A stretch of 64,000 nt of DNA from Herbidospora galbida (GTDB lineage Bacteria; Actinomycetota; Actinomycetes; Streptosporangiales; Streptosporangiaceae), in NCBI RefSeq assembly GCF_005233835.1, contig NZ_SZQA01000019.1:1-64000 (forward strand), given 5' to 3'. Every line of letters begins with the position of its first letter. The stretch's first letter is position 1. This document shows, in pieces, positions 5,584 to 13,692 of the stretch. The translations under genes and the position numbers were made by a program. A model generated the notes under the pieces. It ran no database searches. It worked only from the letters and a program-made list of their open reading frames with translations, and had not been told where the DNA came from.

Positions 5584-7479
5584 TTAGTCGTCGTCGAGGC
5601 CGCCGAGCTCACGGGCCAGGAAGGCGAGCATGTCGGCGGCCAGGCCCGCCGCCCGGTCGGCCGAGCGGCCCGCGTGGCCGACCCCGGTCTCGTGGCGGAA
5701 CAGGATCGGGCGCACGCCCGAGGTCGCGCCCTGCAGGGCCGCGCACATCTTGCGAGCGTGCAGGGGGTCGACGCGGCTGTCGCCGTCGAAGACGGTGAAC
5801 AGCGTCGCGGGGTAGTCGACACCCTCCTTGACGTGGTGATAGGGCGAATAGGCCAGCAGCCAGGCGAACTGCTCGGGGTCGTCGGCCGACCCGTATTCCG
5901 GCACCCACGAGCTCCCGAGCCCCGACTTCTCGAACCTGATCATGTCGAGCACCGGCGCCGAGCACACGGCGGCGGCGACCAGCTCGGGGCGCTGGGTGAC
6001 GAGCGCCCCGACGAGCAGCCCGCCGCCCGACTCTCCGGTGACCCCGAGCAGGCCGGGGGTCGTCCAGCCCGCCGCGATCAGGGTCTCGGCGGCGGCGGCG
6101 AAGTCGTCGAAGGAGTTCTGCTTCCGCCCCCGCATGCCCGCCCGATGCCACGCCTCCCCTTCTTCGCCACCACCCCTGACCTGGGCGAACGCGAAGACGC
6201 CGCCCGCCTCCAGCCAAGGGAGCACATAGGAGGAGTAGGAGGGCGTGAGCGGCACCCCGAACCCGCCGTAGCCGTAGAGGATGCACGGCCGGGGCCCCGG
6301 CAGGCCCTTGCCGAGCACGACCATCCGGACCGGCGTGCCGTCGGCCGACTGGTAGACGACCTGGTGCGACTCGATCTCGGGCAGCTCGGCCCGGCCGGGG
6401 GCCGCCTCCCAGAGCGTGGTCTCGCCGGTGCGGGCGTCGTAGCGGTAGACGCTCTCGGGCGTGACGTAGTCGGAGTAGGTGAACCAGACCTCGTGGTCAC
6501 GGGCGGACATCCGCCCGATGGAGCCGAGACCGGGGAGCGGGACCGCTCCTTGACGCTCCCCGGTCTCGGGATCGTGGACGGAGATCTCCCCGATGGCGTG
6601 ACGCACCCACGCCACCAGGAGGACCCCGTCGAGCAGGGCGAAGTCGGCGATCACGGCCTCCCCGTCTTCGGGGACGAGGTCGCGGAAGTCGCCGGGCGCG
6701 GCCGGATCGGCGACGAGCAGCCGGCCCCGGGGGGCGTCGAGGGTCGTGATCATGTACGCCCTCCCGTCGCCCCCCACCGCCACCGCCGACCGGGCCGGGA
6801 CGTCCTGCTGGACCACCCGCCGGGCCGGGGTCACCAGGTCGCACAGCCACACGTCGTTGCCCGGCCCCCGGTTGACCGAGAGGGTCAGCCAGCGGCCGTC
6901 GGCGCTGAGGGCGATGCCGTCGGCGGCGGCCACGTCGAGGTCGTCGCCGTCGAGGCGGTGGACGCGGGCCCGCCGGTCGCGGACGTAGTAGAAGCCGTCG
7001 CCGCCCGGCAGCCAGGCCACCGGCGAGTGGCGGAGCCCCCCGATCGGGCCGTCGACGAGCGCGCCGGTCTGGGCGTCGAGGACGTAGAGCTCCGAACGCT
7101 CGTCGCCGCCCCGCGACAGCTGGCAGGCGACGAGCTTGCCGTCGGGCGAGGGATGCCAGGCGTCGAGCAGCGTGGTCGCGCCGGGGTCGATCGCCTCGGG
7201 GTCGAGGACGACCCGGTCGTCGGCGTAGAGGACCGGCAGCCGGCGGCCCGGATCGCGGCGGACGCGGAACGCGGTGCCCGCCCGCCAGACCGGGGCGCCC
7301 ACGACGCCGGTGTCGCTCAGTTCGTCGATCCTGACCCGGAACCGGTCGCGGTCGGGGAGGAGCTGGCTGCGCCAGACCACTTCCTGCTGCGCCTGCCAGG
7401 CCCGCGTCTCGTCGGAGGCGGGGTCTTCGAGCCAGCGGTAGGGGTCGGAGACGACGTGCCCGTGAATGATCTCGATCAT
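5584..7479 (-). CDS. Prolyl oligopeptidase, candidate lanthipeptide leader peptidase
   Basis: 631 residues in the S9A layout: a short N-terminal segment (IIHGHVVSDPYRWLEDP), a beta-propeller to about residue 385 and a C-terminal alpha/beta-hydrolase domain. The catalytic triad is visible: Ser in GESGGG (about 484), Asp in FDGDSRVDP (about 571) and His in GVGHAG (about 602). Prolyl oligopeptidases cut after proline in peptides of modest size; FlaP of the flavipeptin locus is a known precedent for one acting in class III lanthipeptide maturation. The ATG at 7479 overlaps the stop of the preceding ABC gene (ATGA), putting it in the lanthipeptide operon. It has no signal peptide. Confidence 0.87.
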   Translation of the reverse strand: MIEIIHGHVVSDPYRWLEDPASDETRAWQAQQEVVWRSQLLPDRDRFRVRIDELSDTGVVGAPVWRAGTAFRVRRDPGRRLPVLYADDRVVLDPEAIDPGATTLLDAWHPSPDGKLVACQLSRGGDERSELYVLDAQTGALVDGPIGGLRHSPVAWLPGGDGFYYVRDRRARVHRLDGDDLDVAAADGIALSADGRWLTLSVNRGPGNDVWLCDLVTPARRVVQQDVPARSAVAVGGDGRAYMITTLDAPRGRLLVADPAAPGDFRDLVPEDGEAVIADFALLDGVLLVAWVRHAIGEISVHDPETGERQGAVPLPGLGSIGRMSARDHEVWFTYSDYVTPESVYRYDARTGETTLWEAAPGRAELPEIESHQVVYQSADGTPVRMVVLGKGLPGPRPCILYGYGGFGVPLTPSYSSYVLPWLEAGGVFAFAQVRGGGEEGEAWHRAGMRGRKQNSFDDFAAAAETLIAAGWTTPGLLGVTGESGGGLLVGALVTQRPELVAAAVCSAPVLDMIRFEKSGLGSSWVPEYGSADDPEQFAWLLAYSPYHHVKEGVDYPATLFTVFDGDSRVDPLHARKMCAALQGATSGVRPILFRHETGVGHAGRSADRAAGLAADMLAFLARELGGLDDD

Positions 7480-9119
7480 GACACCTGCCTGAGTCGGGGG
7501 TCCCAATGCCCGGCCAGATCCGCGTACAGGGGCGAGGCGGCGAGAAGTTCCTGGTGGGTGCCGGCGACGACCCGGGCGCCGTCCATGACCAGCACCTTCC
7601 GGGCCCGCAGTGCCGAGCTGATGCGGTGGGCGACGACGACGAGGGTGCCGCCCCGCTCCGCGAAGGCCTGCTCGACGCGGGCCTCGGCCGCCGGGTCGAG
7701 GCAGGAGGTGGCCTCGTCGAGGATGACCAGCGGCGCGTCGGCGAGATAGGCCCTGGCCAGGGCGACGAACTGCCGGTCGGCCGGGCCGAGCTCGGTGGCC
7801 TGGAGGCTGAGGTGCCCGGCCCCGATGGCGTCGAGCGCCTGCCGCATCTTCTTCTGGTCGTGCCCGCCGAGGTTCTCGGCGACGGTCCCCCGGAAGACGT
7901 ACGCCTCCTGCGGGATCAGCGTCCGCTGCCCCCGGTCGAGCCGGGCGGCCGGCACCCCGCCGACGGTCACCCGCCCCTGACCGGGGACGATCAGCCCGGC
8001 GATCAGCGCCGCGAGGGTGGACTTGCCGATCCCGCTCGGCCCGACCACGGCGAGGTGCTCCCCTTCGGGGATGACCAGGTCGAGGCGGTCGACGACCGGC
8101 AGCGCCCGGGGACCGTAGGCGAAGGTGACCCCCTTCAGCTCGGTGTGCACCCCCTCGGCCCTGCGGGTCTCCTGCGGGGGCGGCGGCAGCGCGGCCCGCA
8201 GCCGGGCCAGCGTGACCCAGAGCCGCACCCCGCTCTCCCCCAGCCCACTGGCCAGGTTGAACAGCGCGGGCGTGAGCGACTGCATCACATAGGCGAGGGT
8301 CCCGAGCACGACCCCCGGGGTGGCCCCCAGCCGGGGCGCGTAGGCGAGCACCAGCAGGATCGGCGCCCAGGCCCCCACGCCCAGCACGACGGTCCGCAGG
8401 GTCGTGACCGTCGCCAGTCTTCCGGCCGCGAGCCGCTGGCCGTCGAAGCGGGCGCCGGCGTAGCGGGCGGCGTGGTCTTCGTCGCCGGACGCGGCGATGT
8501 CGCCGAGCGCGGCGGTGACCTTGACCAGGCTCTCGGCGGTGGCCTCGTCGGCGAGCAGGTAGGCGTGCTGCCTCTTGGCCAGCTCGGGCAGCGAGAAGAG
8601 GAACGCCCCCAGCCCGAGCAGCAGCGGCGGCAGCACCAGCAGGAGCAGCTCGGGCATCAGCGCCGCCACGCCGGCGACGACCCCCAGGAAGGCGAACACG
8701 AACGCCTTCACCGACCCGATCACCCCGGTGAACGCGTCGCGCGCCACCTCGACCTGCAGGTTCGCCCGGGTGACGGCGGCCGGGTCGTCTCTCCCGGCTT
8801 CGAGCGCCCCGCGGATGGTCGCCGTCAGCAGCTCCTCCCTGACAGGCTCCACGATGCCCGCCAGCGTGACGACCACCTGCCGCGCGCCGACGGCGGCGAA
8901 GATCCAGGAGACCCCGAGGAGGAAGGTCCAGGACAGCCCGGCGACGGCCTGGTGCGCGGCGAACGCGTCGACGGCCCGCGCGACGGCCAGCCCGATGACG
9001 AACGCCGGCGCGGCCTCGACCAGCGACCAGAGGACGAACCGCCGCACCTGCCCGGGCTGCGCGTGGAAGGAACGCCAGAGGAACACCCCGACGCGGGTCC
9101 GGTGCCCGAAGGAGATCAC
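7476..9119 (-). CDS. ABC exporter half-subunit, canonical Walker A, degenerate signature
   Basis: 547 residues: an N-terminal six-helix membrane domain (about 1-310) fused to an ATPase domain. Walker A GPSGIGKS (about 360-367), a Q-loop Gln (about 404), Walker B LVILDEA with catalytic Glu (about 469) and an H-loop His in VVVAHRIS are intact. The LSGGQ signature is replaced by LGPADRQ (about 444-450). The GTG at 9119 overlaps the stop of the other half-transporter (GTGA), so synthesis is coupled. It is expected to pair with the product of 9116-10720 and export the lanthipeptide, like RamA/RamB in the SapB locus. Confidence 0.88.
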   Translation of the reverse strand: MISFGHRTRVGVFLWRSFHAQPGQVRRFVLWSLVEAAPAFVIGLAVARAVDAFAAHQAVAGLSWTFLLGVSWIFAAVGARQVVVTLAGIVEPVREELLTATIRGALEAGRDDPAAVTRANLQVEVARDAFTGVIGSVKAFVFAFLGVVAGVAALMPELLLLVLPPLLLGLGAFLFSLPELAKRQHAYLLADEATAESLVKVTAALGDIAASGDEDHAARYAGARFDGQRLAAGRLATVTTLRTVVLGVGAWAPILLVLAYAPRLGATPGVVLGTLAYVMQSLTPALFNLASGLGESGVRLWVTLARLRAALPPPPQETRRAEGVHTELKGVTFAYGPRALPVVDRLDLVIPEGEHLAVVGPSGIGKSTLAALIAGLIVPGQGRVTVGGVPAARLDRGQRTLIPQEAYVFRGTVAENLGGHDQKKMRQALDAIGAGHLSLQATELGPADRQFVALARAYLADAPLVILDEATSCLDPAAEARVEQAFAERGGTLVVVAHRISSALRARKVLVMDGARVVAGTHQELLAASPLYADLAGHWDPRLRQVS

Positions 9120-10720
9120 GATCGCGCCTCCCCGCCCTGGAAGACGGCCCGGTAGGCCGGGTCGTGCCACAGCGCGAGGTGGCGGTCGAAGCCGCGCAGC
9201 CGCCCGTCGTGCAGCCAGATCACCCGGTCGGCCCGCGCGGCGACGGCGGCCCGGTGGGTCACCATGACGCGGGTGCGGGTGTCGGCGGACAGGGCCGTGG
9301 AGACCTGGCGTTCGGTGATGGTGTCGAGGCTGGAGGTGGCGTCGTCGAGCACCAGCAGGCGGTTTCCCTTCGCGAAGGCCCTGGCCAGGCCCAGCCGCTG
9401 GCGTTCGCCGCCCGACATGGGGGCCTCGGACAGAGGGGTGCGGTAGCCGTGGGGCAGGCGGCGGATGAAGTCGTCGGCCCCGGCGGCCACGGCCGCGGGG
9501 CGGGAGCCGCCGGTCGCGTCGGCGACCGTGTCTCCGACCAGGTGGGGCCTGGCGACGGCGTACCCGACGGCGGTGCGGAGCGACTCGCGGGTCAGCGACC
9601 GCAGCGGGACCCCGTCGAGCAGGACCTCACCGGTCTCCGGGTCGTCGAGCCGCGCCGCGAGCCGCGCGAACCGCGACGCCCCCGTGCCGACCACGGCCAC
9701 CGAGGCGCCGCCCTGGATCTCCAGCCCGAGGCCGGGGACGCCGCGAAAGGTCAGTGTTCCGGGGCCGGGGGGCAGCGTCCGCACCCCGTGGACCCTCGGG
9801 CATTCGTCGAGGACGTCGGCCAGCCGGGCGCCGGCCGCGCGGGCGCGGGCAAGCCGGCCCAGCGAACCGATCGCGGGCCCGAGACCCGCTCCGATGACCA
9901 CGTAGCGGGCGGCGGCGTAGAGCTCGCCGACCGACAGCTCACCGGCCGCCAGCCGCCAGCCGCCGACGGCCAGCACCAGCACCTCCAGGAGCGGCACCAC
10001 GATCGCGGCCCGCACTCCGGCGTCGGCGTTGGCCCGCCACAGCGCCATGGCGTGGCCGCGCACCACCGGGAGCGCGGTCAGCACCCGCCGGGTCTCCTGT
10101 TCGGCGGTTCCGGCCGCCGCGATCGTACGGGCGCCGCCGACCGCCTCGACCAGGCGCGCGGCGATGTCGGCCTGCGCCTCCTGGTAGCCGCCGGCGATCA
10201 CCGTGGAGACCTTCAGGAACCGCTTGAGCACGAAGGCGATCGCGACCAGCCCGCCCGCCAGCGTCAGCGCCAGCCACGGATCGATCAGCACGAGCAGGAC
10301 CAGCGCCCCGGCCGACGGCACCACCATCGCCACCGACGCGACGGCGGCGTCGGCCGCGCGCCCGGCCTCTTCGGCGTTGAGGCCGAGCCGGGTCACCAGG
10401 TCGCCCTCGGGGATCCGCCGGGTCACGCCGGGTCCGGCGCCGAGCAGATGGGAGAGCGCCCGGTGGCGCAGCCAGGCCGCCGCCCGCGCGCCACCGGTGG
10501 CGCTCATATGGACACCGAGACCGTCGCAGGCGACGAGGAGCACCACGACGGCCCCGGCGCAGACCACCCACGCCGCGGAGAAGGTGTCGACGGCGCGGCC
10601 GAGCACGAACGGCAGTGCCAGCTCAAGGCCGGCGCCGACCAGCGCGACAGCGGCGAGCACGCCCGCCGCGGGCCCGCTACGCCTGATCGCCTCGGTTGTC
10701 AGCCGGTCGGCCGTCCGCAA
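9116..10720 (-). CDS. ABC exporter half-subunit, degenerate Walker A, canonical signature
   Basis: 534 residues: membrane domain (about 1-300) followed by an ATPase domain. The Walker A position reads VVGTGASRF (about 343-351) and lacks the essential lysine; the Q-loop position reads YAVARP, without glutamine. The signature MSGGERQ (about 435-441) is intact, and Walker B ends LLVLDDA with Asp in place of the catalytic Glu. The H-loop His is present (VTHRA). This is the exact complement of its partner. The start is a TTG at 10720 with AGAGGGA about ten bases upstream; no better start is in frame. Confidence 0.86.
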   Translation of the reverse strand: MRTADRLTTEAIRRSGPAAGVLAAVALVGAGLELALPFVLGRAVDTFSAAWVVCAGAVVVLLVACDGLGVHMSATGGARAAAWLRHRALSHLLGAGPGVTRRIPEGDLVTRLGLNAEEAGRAADAAVASVAMVVPSAGALVLLVLIDPWLALTLAGGLVAIAFVLKRFLKVSTVIAGGYQEAQADIAARLVEAVGGARTIAAAGTAEQETRRVLTALPVVRGHAMALWRANADAGVRAAIVVPLLEVLVLAVGGWRLAAGELSVGELYAAARYVVIGAGLGPAIGSLGRLARARAAGARLADVLDECPRVHGVRTLPPGPGTLTFRGVPGLGLEIQGGASVAVVGTGASRFARLAARLDDPETGEVLLDGVPLRSLTRESLRTAVGYAVARPHLVGDTVADATGGSRPAAVAAGADDFIRRLPHGYRTPLSEAPMSGGERQRLGLARAFAKGNRLLVLDDATSSLDTITERQVSTALSADTRTRVMVTHRAAVAARADRVIWLHDGRLRGFDRHLALWHDPAYRAVFQGGEARS

Positions 10721-10756: not shown

Positions 10757-10797
10757 AAAAACGGGGAGGGCCCTGGGCTCCCGCGAGCCCAGGGCCC
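10757..10797 (-). terminator. Hairpin and T-run between precursor and ABC genes
   Basis: A perfect 13-bp inverted repeat (arms 10768-10780 and 10785-10797, loop CCGC) lies just downstream of the precursor stop. On the minus strand it is followed after six bases by TTTTT (10761-10757). It would act as an attenuator, giving far more precursor transcript than transporter transcript, and would also protect the 3' end of the short mRNA. This arrangement is common after lanthipeptide structural genes. Confidence 0.7.
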
Positions 10798-10808
10798 CGA
10801 TCGGGTGC

Positions 10809-10958
10809 CTAGTGGCAGAGCAGCAGGCTCAGGTTGCTGGGCGTCTGGGACGCGCAGCCGAGCAGGGTCAGCGTGCTGCCGCCGCCGCCGTGGCCGCCGC
10901 CACCGTGGCCGCTGCCGCCGCCGGGAAGCTCCATCGCCTGAAGGTCGAGAAGAACCAT
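10809..10958 (-). CDS. Class III lanthipeptide precursor, SapB-like
   Basis: A 49-residue peptide. The start MVLLDLQAMELP matches the class III leader signature (LLDLQ; compare LFDLQ in RamS of SapB). It is followed by a glycine/histidine linker at residues 13-28 that contains only Gly, Ser and two His. The C-terminal core holds two ring motifs, STLTLLGC and SNLSLLLC, separated by ASQTP, and ends in His. These S-x-x-S/T-x3-C motifs match the two rings of SapB. AAAGGAG lies about eight bases before the ATG. LanKC is 63 bases upstream and two ABC genes lie downstream, as in ramCSAB. The linker is unusual for the family. Confidence 0.9.
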   Translation of the reverse strand: MVLLDLQAMELPGGGSGHGGGGHGGGGSTLTLLGCASQTPSNLSLLLCH

Positions 10959-11021
10959 GGTGATGCTCCTTTACGAAGTTTCTCTATCGGGAGGAAATTC
11001 GAGATCTTTAGAAAGGTGGAG

Positions 11022-13526
11022 CTAGCTGTTCGGGGCCCCGATCACCTCCTTGGCCGGTGGGCGAAGGGGGACGCCACCAGGCACGGCGTAGGGTTCCGCG
11101 CCAAGTGGATGTGTGAAGGGCAACGGCGTGCCGCTGAGGGCGTAGAGGACGCCGGCGGTGCCGGTCGCGAAGTCCATCGACAGCCGGAGCAGCTGGTCGC
11201 CGGGGAAGGCGATCCCGTCGCGGTAGGGCAGGACATGCCAGTCGAGGCCGGGGATCAGGGTCCGGTCGGCCATCACCATCCCGGCCCGCCCGGCGAACAG
11301 GCCGGGCTGCACGAAGAACCGGCAGCGGCCCACTTTCAGCAGGTCGGGCAGGGCGGCGGCCAGCGATGAACCGGGCCGCTGGCGCAGCAGGTCGGCCAGC
11401 ACGATCGCGATGCCGACCGAGCCCTCGTCGAGGTAGGGAAGGGTCCGCCAGCCTTGGTTGACCTGCAGCGATCCGTCGGACGTGAGGACGCAGCGCTTCA
11501 GGTCGAGGCGCAGCGCCCGTTCGGCCAGATCGAGCAGCGCCGGATCCCGGGTGTGGTCGTAGGCGCGCAGGAACAGCAGGGCGGGGCCGCTCAGGCCGTA
11601 GAGGAGACCGGCTCTGGGGTTCGCGCCGCCCGACGTCTCGGGTACGTCGTCGGGAAGCCGCTCGGCGCAGAGTTCGACCAGCGGGCGGGCGTCGAGCCCC
11701 AGGTGGAGCAGGTTGAGCCCGATGCCGGCCAGCCCCGACCACAGCCCGAGGTCGAGCTCGCGCCACCGGCCCGCCATCGCGCGGTCGACGAGGTCGAGCG
11801 CCCGGTCGACGTGGCCGAACCGGTCGAGGACGTAGGCGACGCCGTGCAGGCCGTCGTAGAAGCCGGGCGGTGACTCCGGCCGCTGCCGGAGCAGCCACTC
11901 TTCGAGGTCGGGGAAGCGCCCGGCCCCGGCCGCGTCGAGCGCGAACAGCACCCCGGCCGCGCCGTGGGCCAGGTTGACGCCGCCGCCGGGCCGGAACTGG
12001 GCGGGGTCGCCGGGGAACAGCCGGTCGGCCCGCTCGGGCGTGGCACTGGCCAGGATCGCCCGCGCCATCGCCGCCATCGGGTCGCCCAGGGTCACGCTGG
12101 CCGTCGGCCCGCCCCCGATGGGCCCGCTGATCGTGTGGACGGCCCGCTTGACGAGCTCGGGCGGCACCGGGAACGTGTCGACGATCAGCCGCCCGAGCTG
12201 GCTCGCCTTGGCCCGCGCCAGCGGCACGGTGATCGTGAGCTGCGGCGCGAACAGGCCCAGCGTCAGACAGGCGAGGGCGTAGTGGTCGACGTCGGCGCCC
12301 CGGCGGTCGGCCGGCGCCTGGAAGGCCGGGTGGGCCAGCACCGACCGCCCGCGGTCTTCGACGAAGGTCGCGACCTCGAAGTCGATGAGGACGAGCCGCC
12401 CTTCGGGCGTGACCAGGATGTTGTTGGGGTGGAGGTCGCAGAAGACGACCCCGCGTTCGTGCAGCGCCTCGATCGCGGCCCGCACCTTGGGCAGCGTGTC
12501 GAGCGCCCAGACGGTGTATTCGGCGATCGACTCGGCGGTCGCGTCGGCCTTGGTCAGCGGGAACGTGCGGACCAGGGTGCGCTGCAGCGGCGTGGCGTCG
12601 ACGAACTCCATCACCAGGAAGTGGTGGTCGCCGAGCACGAAGTAGTCGCGGTAGCCGGGCACGCAGTCGAGCCCGTCGAGCCGCCGCAGCACCTCGCGCT
12701 CGTGCTGGAGCCGCGCCACCGCGTCGCGTTCGGCCGCGTCGAGCCCCGCCATCGGCCTGGCCTCCTTGAGCACGACCCGCTCACCGCTCCGCCTGTCGGT
12801 GGCGAGGTAGACGCCACCGCCGTTGGAGAAGTGCATGACCGACTCGACCGCGTAGGGCAGCTCGGTCGTGGTGACCGCGTTCCTGGCCTCCAGGTGGGGC
12901 GTCAGGAAGCCGGGCAGCTCGACCCAGTCGGGAACCGTGAACGACGGCCCCCGGACGTCGGGCACCAGCTCGCCCCGGTCGTTCTCCATCGCCGGCACGA
13001 GGTCGCCGTTGGCGGCCACGCAGCGCCGGGCCACGAACCCGCCGTAGCGGACGAAGAGGGGCCCGTCTCCGTAGCGGAGATCGCTCAGGATGTAGGGCCC
13101 CCGCACCCCCGCCAGCAGGCCGTCGAGCTCCTTGAGCGTCAGCTCCAGACAGTCTTGCCTCGGGTAGATGGTGACCAGTTTGCCGCTCGCGCCCCGCGCG
13201 GCCCCTTTTGAGTTGAGCATCGTGACGACAGACCGGCTGCGCAGGAATTTGAAGGGGATATCACGTTCGACGCAATAATCCCAGACGATTTCCAGCACCC
13301 GCGCCGCGTCGGCCAGCCCGGCCGACACGTGGATCTTCCAGCCCTGCGGCGGAACATCGTGGCCGGTCGGGGCGTAGTGGAACCAGGTGTCGGACGGCTG
13401 GTGGGACCAGCCACGCGGAACCTCACGTCCTGCCACGGCGAAATCCGGAATTTCGATTCCGCGCCGGTCGGCGGTGTCGTAGAAAAGCCGGTCCGCGAGG
13501 CAATAAAGCTCATACTGGTCATTCAC
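11022..13526 (-). CDS. lanKC: Class III lanthionine synthetase LanKC
   Basis: About 834 residues in three parts: an N-terminal phosphoSer/Thr lyase domain (about 1-220), a Ser/Thr kinase-like domain (about 230-510; Lys in VLKEA near 254, catalytic CDLHPNN near 363-369, DFE near 382-384) and a C-terminal LanC-like cyclase domain (about 515-834) without the zinc-binding Cys and His of class I/II cyclases. It would phosphorylate precursor Ser/Thr, eliminate to dehydroamino acids and close the rings. I chose GTG 13526 (reading NDQYELYCLAD) because GGGAG lies eight bases upstream and homologues begin this way; ATG 13532 leaves no room for that site. Confidence 0.93.
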   Translation of the reverse strand: MNDQYELYCLADRLFYDTADRRGIEIPDFAVAGREVPRGWSHQPSDTWFHYAPTGHDVPPQGWKIHVSAGLADAARVLEIVWDYCVERDIPFKFLRSRSVVTMLNSKGAARGASGKLVTIYPRQDCLELTLKELDGLLAGVRGPYILSDLRYGDGPLFVRYGGFVARRCVAANGDLVPAMENDRGELVPDVRGPSFTVPDWVELPGFLTPHLEARNAVTTTELPYAVESVMHFSNGGGVYLATDRRSGERVVLKEARPMAGLDAAERDAVARLQHEREVLRRLDGLDCVPGYRDYFVLGDHHFLVMEFVDATPLQRTLVRTFPLTKADATAESIAEYTVWALDTLPKVRAAIEALHERGVVFCDLHPNNILVTPEGRLVLIDFEVATFVEDRGRSVLAHPAFQAPADRRGADVDHYALACLTLGLFAPQLTITVPLARAKASQLGRLIVDTFPVPPELVKRAVHTISGPIGGGPTASVTLGDPMAAMARAILASATPERADRLFPGDPAQFRPGGGVNLAHGAAGVLFALDAAGAGRFPDLEEWLLRQRPESPPGFYDGLHGVAYVLDRFGHVDRALDLVDRAMAGRWRELDLGLWSGLAGIGLNLLHLGLDARPLVELCAERLPDDVPETSGGANPRAGLLYGLSGPALLFLRAYDHTRDPALLDLAERALRLDLKRCVLTSDGSLQVNQGWRTLPYLDEGSVGIAIVLADLLRQRPGSSLAAALPDLLKVGRCRFFVQPGLFAGRAGMVMADRTLIPGLDWHVLPYRDGIAFPGDQLLRLSMDFATGTAGVLYALSGTPLPFTHPLGAEPYAVPGGVPLRPPAKEVIGAPNS

Positions 13527-13692
13527 TGCCATCTCCCTGCTTTCTGCTAACAGGAAGAATTCCGGATAACCCCAGGAGCTTCTAGTTACAAGTTCAATCA
13601 ATCCTCCGTGGGCAAACGTCACGGGTGTCGTCGTGAAATGCGGCCTGACCTGTGCCGGAAGAGACCCGGTGATCGGCTTGTTGCACCATGAC

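Follow-up and report, generated by a model that had tools for sequence, protein, structure and literature searches.

A class III lanthipeptide precursor encoded in the window, by which we mean the whole 64,000-nucleotide stretch of DNA analysed here, from the soil actinomycete Herbidospora, carries a single proline and then a glycine-rich run with two histidines ahead of its core peptide. This raises the question of where the leader is cut and whether the Gly/His run stays on the product. An initial annotation had raised the possibility that the prolyl oligopeptidase (POP) of the same operon cuts after Pro12, in which case the product would keep the run as a tail, with trimming to near the core as the alternative.

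The precursor gene and its parts

The precursor open reading frame starts with ATG, encodes 49 residues (MVLLDLQAMELPGGGSGHGGGGHGGGGSTLTLLGCASQTPSNLSLLLCH) and stops with TAG. It is a real gene, as it matches both the RamS family of Pfam (PF19402, E 2.4e-14) and the NCBIfam model SapB_AmfS_lanti (NF033212, E 2.9e-14, 52.9 bits against a cut-off of 25), and as one such precursor per genome is present in 7/7 Herbidospora genomes (the window's own included). Written in parts, it reads MVLLDLQAMELP-GGGSGHGGGGHGGGG-STLTLLGCASQTPSNLSLLLCH on the minus strand (10809-10958), with the following features:

10809..10958, minus strand: lanA, class III lanthipeptide precursor, 49 aa (PF19402 and NF033212 matches)
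10966..10970, minus strand: AGGAG ribosome-binding site of the precursor, 7 bases before the ATG
10923..10925, minus strand: codon of Pro12, putative POP cut site (after Pro12), kept in 93/93 precursors of POP-bearing loci and matching in position Pro(-12) of the presumed FlaA
10878..10922, minus strand: Gly/His spacer, residues 13-27, GGGSGHGGGGHGGGG (read from the sequence, with relatives compared)
10812..10877, minus strand: core peptide, residues 28-49, STLTLLGCASQTPSNLSLLLCH, 21/22 identical to the core of Kribbella sp. VKM Ac-2569
10854..10877, minus strand: first ring motif, S28-x2-T31-x3-C35 (compare the class III core motif S-x2-S-x2-5-C; PMC8960859, excerpt)
10839..10841, minus strand: codon of Pro40, between the ring motifs, presumably uncut (an equivalent proline is present in Kribbella cores)
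10815..10838, minus strand: second ring motif, S41-x2-S44-x3-C48 (from the sequence)
10767..10798, minus strand: strong hairpin with a 14 bp stem just 3' of the precursor stop (-34.9 kcal/mol, z -3.29), a candidate transcription attenuator or RNA-processing element

The LLDLQ leader and the S-x2-S/T-x3-C core motifs are features of class III, for which S-x2-S-x2-5-C is given as the core motif (PMC8960859, excerpt), and lanthionine or labionin rings are predicted by analogy for the core, S28-H49. Residues 13-28 (GGGSGHGGGGHGGGGS) had been annotated as a 16-residue Gly/Ser/His linker. The composition was read exactly, with His18 and His23 spaced five apart, but the extent needs correction, since Ser28 is the first residue of S28-x2-T31-x3-C35 and the spacer proper is therefore residues 13-27 (15 residues). 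The description of Pro12 as the sole proline before the rings, with Pro40 between the ring motifs, agrees with the sequence. The hairpin behind the precursor recurs at the six Herbidospora loci from named genomes, and it may control how much precursor mRNA there is relative to downstream mRNA. A stable hairpin also follows the precursor of Kribbella sp. VKM Ac-2569 (L062).

The surrounding operon

The operon, from the genus Herbidospora, contains LanKC, the precursor, two ABC half-transporters and the POP:

11022..13532, minus strand: LanKC, class III lanthionine synthetase, probable start codon at 13532 (NF038151, E 4.2e-302; match 11136-13514)
9116..10720, minus strand: ABC half-transporter, membrane part and ATPase (PF00664, PF00005)
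7476..9170, minus strand: second ABC half-transporter, with the ATPase part alone matched in Pfam (PF00005)
5584..7479, minus strand: POP (S9), FlaP-type (PF02897, PF00326; nearest PDB entry 2bkl; in a clade with Kribbella cluster POPs)

LanKC lies upstream of the precursor on the same strand and scores 1004.6 bits against NF038151 (cut-off 575). The two ABC half-transporter genes overlap and lie downstream of the precursor, as does the POP. The best PDB match of the POP is the prolyl endopeptidase 2bkl (E 4.3e-117), and the alignment keeps the nucleophile region GESGGG, one Asp and one His, which in our own reading would form the catalytic triad. This match places the POP near genuine prolyl endopeptidases; no signal peptide was seen in it by eye. 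Elsewhere, the window's genome holds three other S9_N proteins and four M1 matches, the latter all on other contigs. Scanning genes of the operon turned up no aminopeptidase; M1 peptidase genes can sit outside the cluster (PMC10885120, excerpt). The genome also has a second LanKC (L002) with four candidate precursors that have YVLNLQ leaders and no Gly/His spacer; this system was set aside as a different precursor type.

Comparison with flavipeptin and other class III systems

The closest known counterpart is flavipeptin, made from FlaA with the protease FlaP. According to a review, FlaP cuts efficiently solely after Pro(-12) and solely with the rings in place, and later work points to metalloproteases for the removal of residues -11 to -1 left by FlaP (PMC10885120, excerpt). 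A correlation between FlaP-like proteases and homologues of FlaA is reported not only for Kribbella and Streptomyces but also for Amycolatopsis and Jiangella (PMC8960859, excerpt). We compared the window with two Kribbella precursors. That of Kribbella sp. VKM Ac-2569 (L062) reads MALLDLQGLETP-GYGHGGHHHGG-STLTVLGCASQTPSNLSLLLCH and lies directly before a POP; the window's core is identical to its core at 21/22 residues. The second precursor of the genome that we take to be Kribbella flavida (G350), ...LETP-GYGHGGHHHGG-STLTVLGCGSQRPSNLSLLLCH, has 11 residues between the proline and the core Ser, which makes this Pro(-12), and we infer that it is FlaA; its core is 19/22 identical to the window's. 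This genome carries two flavipeptin-like precursors (L271 and L324), one having a Thr-plus-all-Gly spacer with its proline at -11, the other a His-rich spacer with its proline at -12.

The window's operon resembles that of flavipeptin in keeping LanKC, precursor and POP together, in the LLDLQ leader followed by one proline before a Gly/His spacer, and in the 22-residue core with two S-x2-S/T-x3-C motifs and a PSNLSLLLCH end. Its POP also falls in one clade with the Kribbella cluster POPs. It differs in the length of the spacer (15 versus 11 residues), in having fewer His, in 3/22 core residues relative to the presumed K. flavida core, and in that two ABC genes part the POP from the precursor, whereas the POP of Kribbella sp. 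L062 is directly behind it. The window's Pro12 is at -16 counted from Ser28, not at -12.

A precursor was present in 37/38 genomes taken as the genus Kribbella, and 30 of the 51 listed matches were read as loci. All 30 keep the proline and have LanKC and POP matches beside the precursor. The 11-residue spacer with Pro(-12) occurs in 23/30 (and GYGHGGHHHGG itself in 17/30); because 7/30 lack it, we did not take the exact place of the proline as defining the flavipeptin type. On these sequence comparisons, the window's operon belongs to the established flavipeptin type of class III lanthipeptide operons, and its precursor has a longer spacer.

Other class III systems are more distant. SapB/RamS and AmfS, class III morphogenetic peptides associated with aerial hyphae, share with the window the Pfam and NCBIfam family of the precursor and the use of LanKC. 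The SapB system also has two ABC half-transporters, as does the window's operon. However, the SapB-like members of our sample (g34 and g35, 13 loci counted) show neither a proline at the corresponding position nor a neighbouring POP. NAI-112 and the AplP-processed peptides are likewise of the LanKC class, and their leaders are removed in two steps, by an endopeptidase and then an aminopeptidase (PMC10885120, excerpt). There, the endopeptidase is a Zn-dependent M1 enzyme, whereas the window's operon has a serine POP and its precursor lacks the AplP motif: the leader residues E10-L11-P12 do not fit E-(I/L)-(L/Q) (PMC10885120, excerpt), which fits the POP as endopeptidase.

Sampling of loci across the family

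For the family survey, 341 genomes of the window's family were searched, of which 193 had a match. From these we took 140 regions (listed matches plus 58 picked by hand), so the loci are not a random sample, and with six named Herbidospora loci and the window this gave 147 loci. A precursor was found by pattern in 146/147. The exception, L146, was dropped; its LFDLQ leader is missed by the pattern, and it has neither Pro12 nor a POP match. The pattern misses other precursor types too. A locus was scored as having no POP if there was no match over 200 bits within a region of at most 20 kb, and 14 of the 87 loci so scored had regions that ended early at contig ends, including those of all three PSNLS-core precursors without a POP. 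Spacers were called Gly/His at 75% Gly plus His; as this rule favours His, composition counts were repeated on spacers chosen by their Gly content only (at least 60%). Within the literature searched, we found no paper for the core or leader strings or for glycine-rich lanthipeptides.

In the sampled loci, the proline is kept wherever the POP is present

Of the 146 family loci, 59 (in 14 genera) had a POP, never farther than 4.7 kb from the precursor, and all of them kept the proline (59/59 loci, 93/93 precursors). Of the 87 loci without a POP, the proline occurs in all precursors at 40 and is missing from one or more precursors at 47 (71/127 precursors have it). Counted two by two, POP against proline gives a Fisher p of 3.8e-14, which overstates the number of independent cases, since the POP-bearing loci are essentially one clade.

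In a POP tree with 68 rows, 45 POPs from clusters group in a single clade (100/99) that contains those of Kribbella and the window; another POP of the window's genome, L321, and the other family POPs included lie outside it. The label "cluster" needs three changes on this tree, since L054, so labelled although no LanKC match was found there, falls among the other POPs, and the POP of Streptomyces curacoi (L058) falls outside the main clade. L320 is on a very long branch, L323 was too short and was left out, and the row from the presumed K. flavida genome (L300) belongs to the other precursor, at 2580420, rather than to the presumed FlaA locus. Spacer type changes at least twice on the tree while the proline is kept in all loci scored, which indicates that proline and POP stay together as the spacer is exchanged. 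The 93 POP-associated precursors include 71 with a Gly/His spacer by our rule and 22 without (e.g. AASDVASGG).

Outside the main clade, Streptomyces curacoi (L058) has a locus with LanKC, a POP and three unusual precursors with VLDLQTL... leaders and short cores. In each of the three, a proline stands two or three positions ahead of the first Ser in the probable core, and two have further prolines upstream. These prolines are a weak independent sign that POP and proline are paired.

The proposal that the cluster POP cuts after Pro12 is most likely right, given the published arrangement of FlaP and FlaA (PMC10885120, excerpt) and the proline in 59/59 POP-bearing loci and 30/30 Kribbella loci. 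Yet the proline also persists in 40/87 loci without a POP and is thus not exclusively a mark of this enzyme. It could instead end a LanKC-binding helix, with another protease, AplP-like M1 or other, cutting in or before the spacer. This would suit the TPHENSSLS-core precursors, 55/55 of which keep the proline (29 loci, six genera) with no POP nearby, many of them with P-G-G-H spacers. Ten ORFs scanned at two such loci (six at L140 and four at L158) included two ABC genes, one regulator of the LuxR type and a single FAD-binding domain, and none was a peptidase, though a POP elsewhere in these genomes is likely, as 332/341 family genomes contain a close POP match somewhere. The four M1 matches in the window's genome also speak for another protease. 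We nevertheless consider this explanation unlikely: the corresponding proline is the reported FlaP site (PMC10885120, excerpt), the proline is kept wherever the POP is present even when the spacer has been replaced, and the window's leader does not carry the AplP motif. A cut by the POP after Pro12 is, by analogy with FlaP, well supported.

The spacer is variable in sequence and rich in histidine

A POP search of the named genomes found six Herbidospora species at 93-97% identity. The seven Herbidospora precursors have identical leaders from LLDLQ onward and identical cores, and differ in the spacer, which is GGGSGHGGGGHGGGG in three genomes, GGGYPGGGGHGGGG in two, GGGHPGGGGHGGGG in one and GGGGGHGGGGGGGGG in one. 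It varies within the genus in length, His number and His position (Herbidospora mongoliensis has one His). In two spacer forms, found in 3/7 genomes, residue 17 is a further proline, and the precise cut may therefore vary from species to species.

The linker had been described as a type unfamiliar in SapB-like peptides. This does not hold for the sampled loci, where 125/220 precursors have a Gly/His spacer behind the proline, nor for the presumed K. flavida precursor with its GYGHGGHHHGG, and we dropped the idea of an unusual or unique linker in view of how widespread such spacers are in the family and Kribbella. A strict pairing of POP with Gly/His spacer was also rejected, as 22/93 POP-associated precursors lack the spacer and 54 precursors without a nearby POP have it. 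Nor is the five-residue His spacing a motif: it occurs once among 18 neighbouring pairs in 74 distinct spacers.

Alternatively, the spacer could be low-complexity sequence under no selection, lengthened and shortened by slippage at GGN repeats, with only its length mattering. The spread in length, from 7 to 15 residues across the distinct spacers, and the Gly codons of the Herbidospora spacers, mostly GGC, would fit. The composition of the spacers argues otherwise. A His codon is two base changes away from the Gly codons GGC and GGT. The 40 distinct POP-associated Gly/His spacers contain 409 residues (343 Gly, 44 His, 9 Thr, 4 Tyr, 3 Asn, 2 Asp, 2 Ser and 2 Pro); amino acids one step, a single base change, away from GGC/GGT (Ala, Arg, Asp, Cys, Ser and Val) total 4 against 44 His. 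Under the Gly-only rule, there are 44 His against 6 one-step residues in 41 spacers with a POP, and 40 against 8 in those without. The 30 Kribbella-genus spacers together hold 103 His. In addition, pN/pS of the spacer is below 1 in two Kribbella sets: 0.36 among 14 distinct sequences of one length (core 0.30, leader 0.03), and 0.66 among 4 distinct sequences of another (core 0.37, leader 0.06). The corresponding Herbidospora values are rough, coming from small sets that treat alternative starts of a single gene as different sequences, and we gave them no weight. A neutral run is thus very unlikely, and this clear over-representation of His suggests that selection probably maintains the Gly/His composition, though more loosely than it does the leader.

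In a rival reading, the POP would cut after Pro12, no further trimming would follow, and the secreted product would keep a 15-residue tail that binds metal or gives pH-dependent surface behaviour. Such a tail would account for the His excess over chance mutation of Gly codons (44 versus 4, or 44 versus 6 by the Gly-only rule), for the presence of at least one His in 36/40 distinct POP-associated spacers, and for a Kribbella spacer almost as constrained as the core in one length class (0.36 versus 0.30), with 17/30 spacers the same. Set against this are the number and position of His, which vary (none in 4/40, the first anywhere from P+3 to P+10), the single His of H. mongoliensis and the internal proline in two Herbidospora forms, and the spacer pN/pS of 0.66 in the smaller Kribbella set (4 sequences). 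The 22/93 POP-associated precursors without a Gly/His spacer imply that the tail is not needed for the system, and in the published scheme metalloproteases are suggested to remove what FlaP leaves (PMC10885120, excerpt). The earlier suggestion that the final product keeps the Gly/His tail therefore fared poorly, with a variable spacer and a second proline in 3/7 Herbidospora; retention is unlikely, and the full version given above, with metal binding or pH-dependent behaviour, has only a slim chance of being correct.

The copper/nickel site known as ATCUN has His as the third residue of a free N-terminus. After a cut at Pro12, the window's first His would be at P+6, so no N-terminal Xxx-Xxx-His would result, and we rejected an ATCUN site directly after this cut. 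The first His is at P+3 in 2/40 distinct POP-associated spacers. In loci without a POP, the spacer most often begins P-G-G-H, and the first His is at P+3 in 19/34 distinct Gly/His spacers, against about 12% expected by uniform placement with shared descent ignored. Since His number and place differ, and one POP group has no Gly/His spacer, a spacer that is flexible and unreactive, and to which His brings some benefit, fits better than a defined metal site. The overhang could conceivably be a selected functional element that outlasts the POP cut for long enough to bind metal, or to respond to pH like a switch, while the peptide is exported or once it is on the cell surface, a view that we regard as decidedly improbable.

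Proposed maturation and its meaning

We favour a flavipeptin-type pathway as the likely route. LanKC would bind LLDLQ of the leader and form two rings in S28-H49, as expected from its family, with the 15-residue spacer allowing the core to reach the active sites of the synthetase and keeping the protease site away from the rings. The cluster POP would then cut after Pro12, probably preferring the ring-bearing precursor as FlaP does, a step supported by the co-conservation of POP and proline. Pro40 should be spared, given the equivalent proline in Kribbella cores and the report that FlaP cuts at Pro(-12) (PMC10885120, excerpt). General aminopeptidases of the cell would trim the Gly/His overhang stepwise toward the core, and the two ABC half-transporters would presumably export the product.

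These comparisons place the window's peptide beside flavipeptin, with a spacer between proline and core that is free to change. His is in excess in the spacers of loci with and without a POP alike. If the overhang were functional, flavipeptin-type products or secreted intermediates would be metal-responsive surface peptides. The P-G-G-H spacers of loci without a POP point in that direction too, as they would present a classical copper/nickel-binding Gly-Gly-His end if cut after the proline. For this enzyme group, the pairing of POP and proline across the sampled family loci and Kribbella offers a simple rule by which to predict the cut site.
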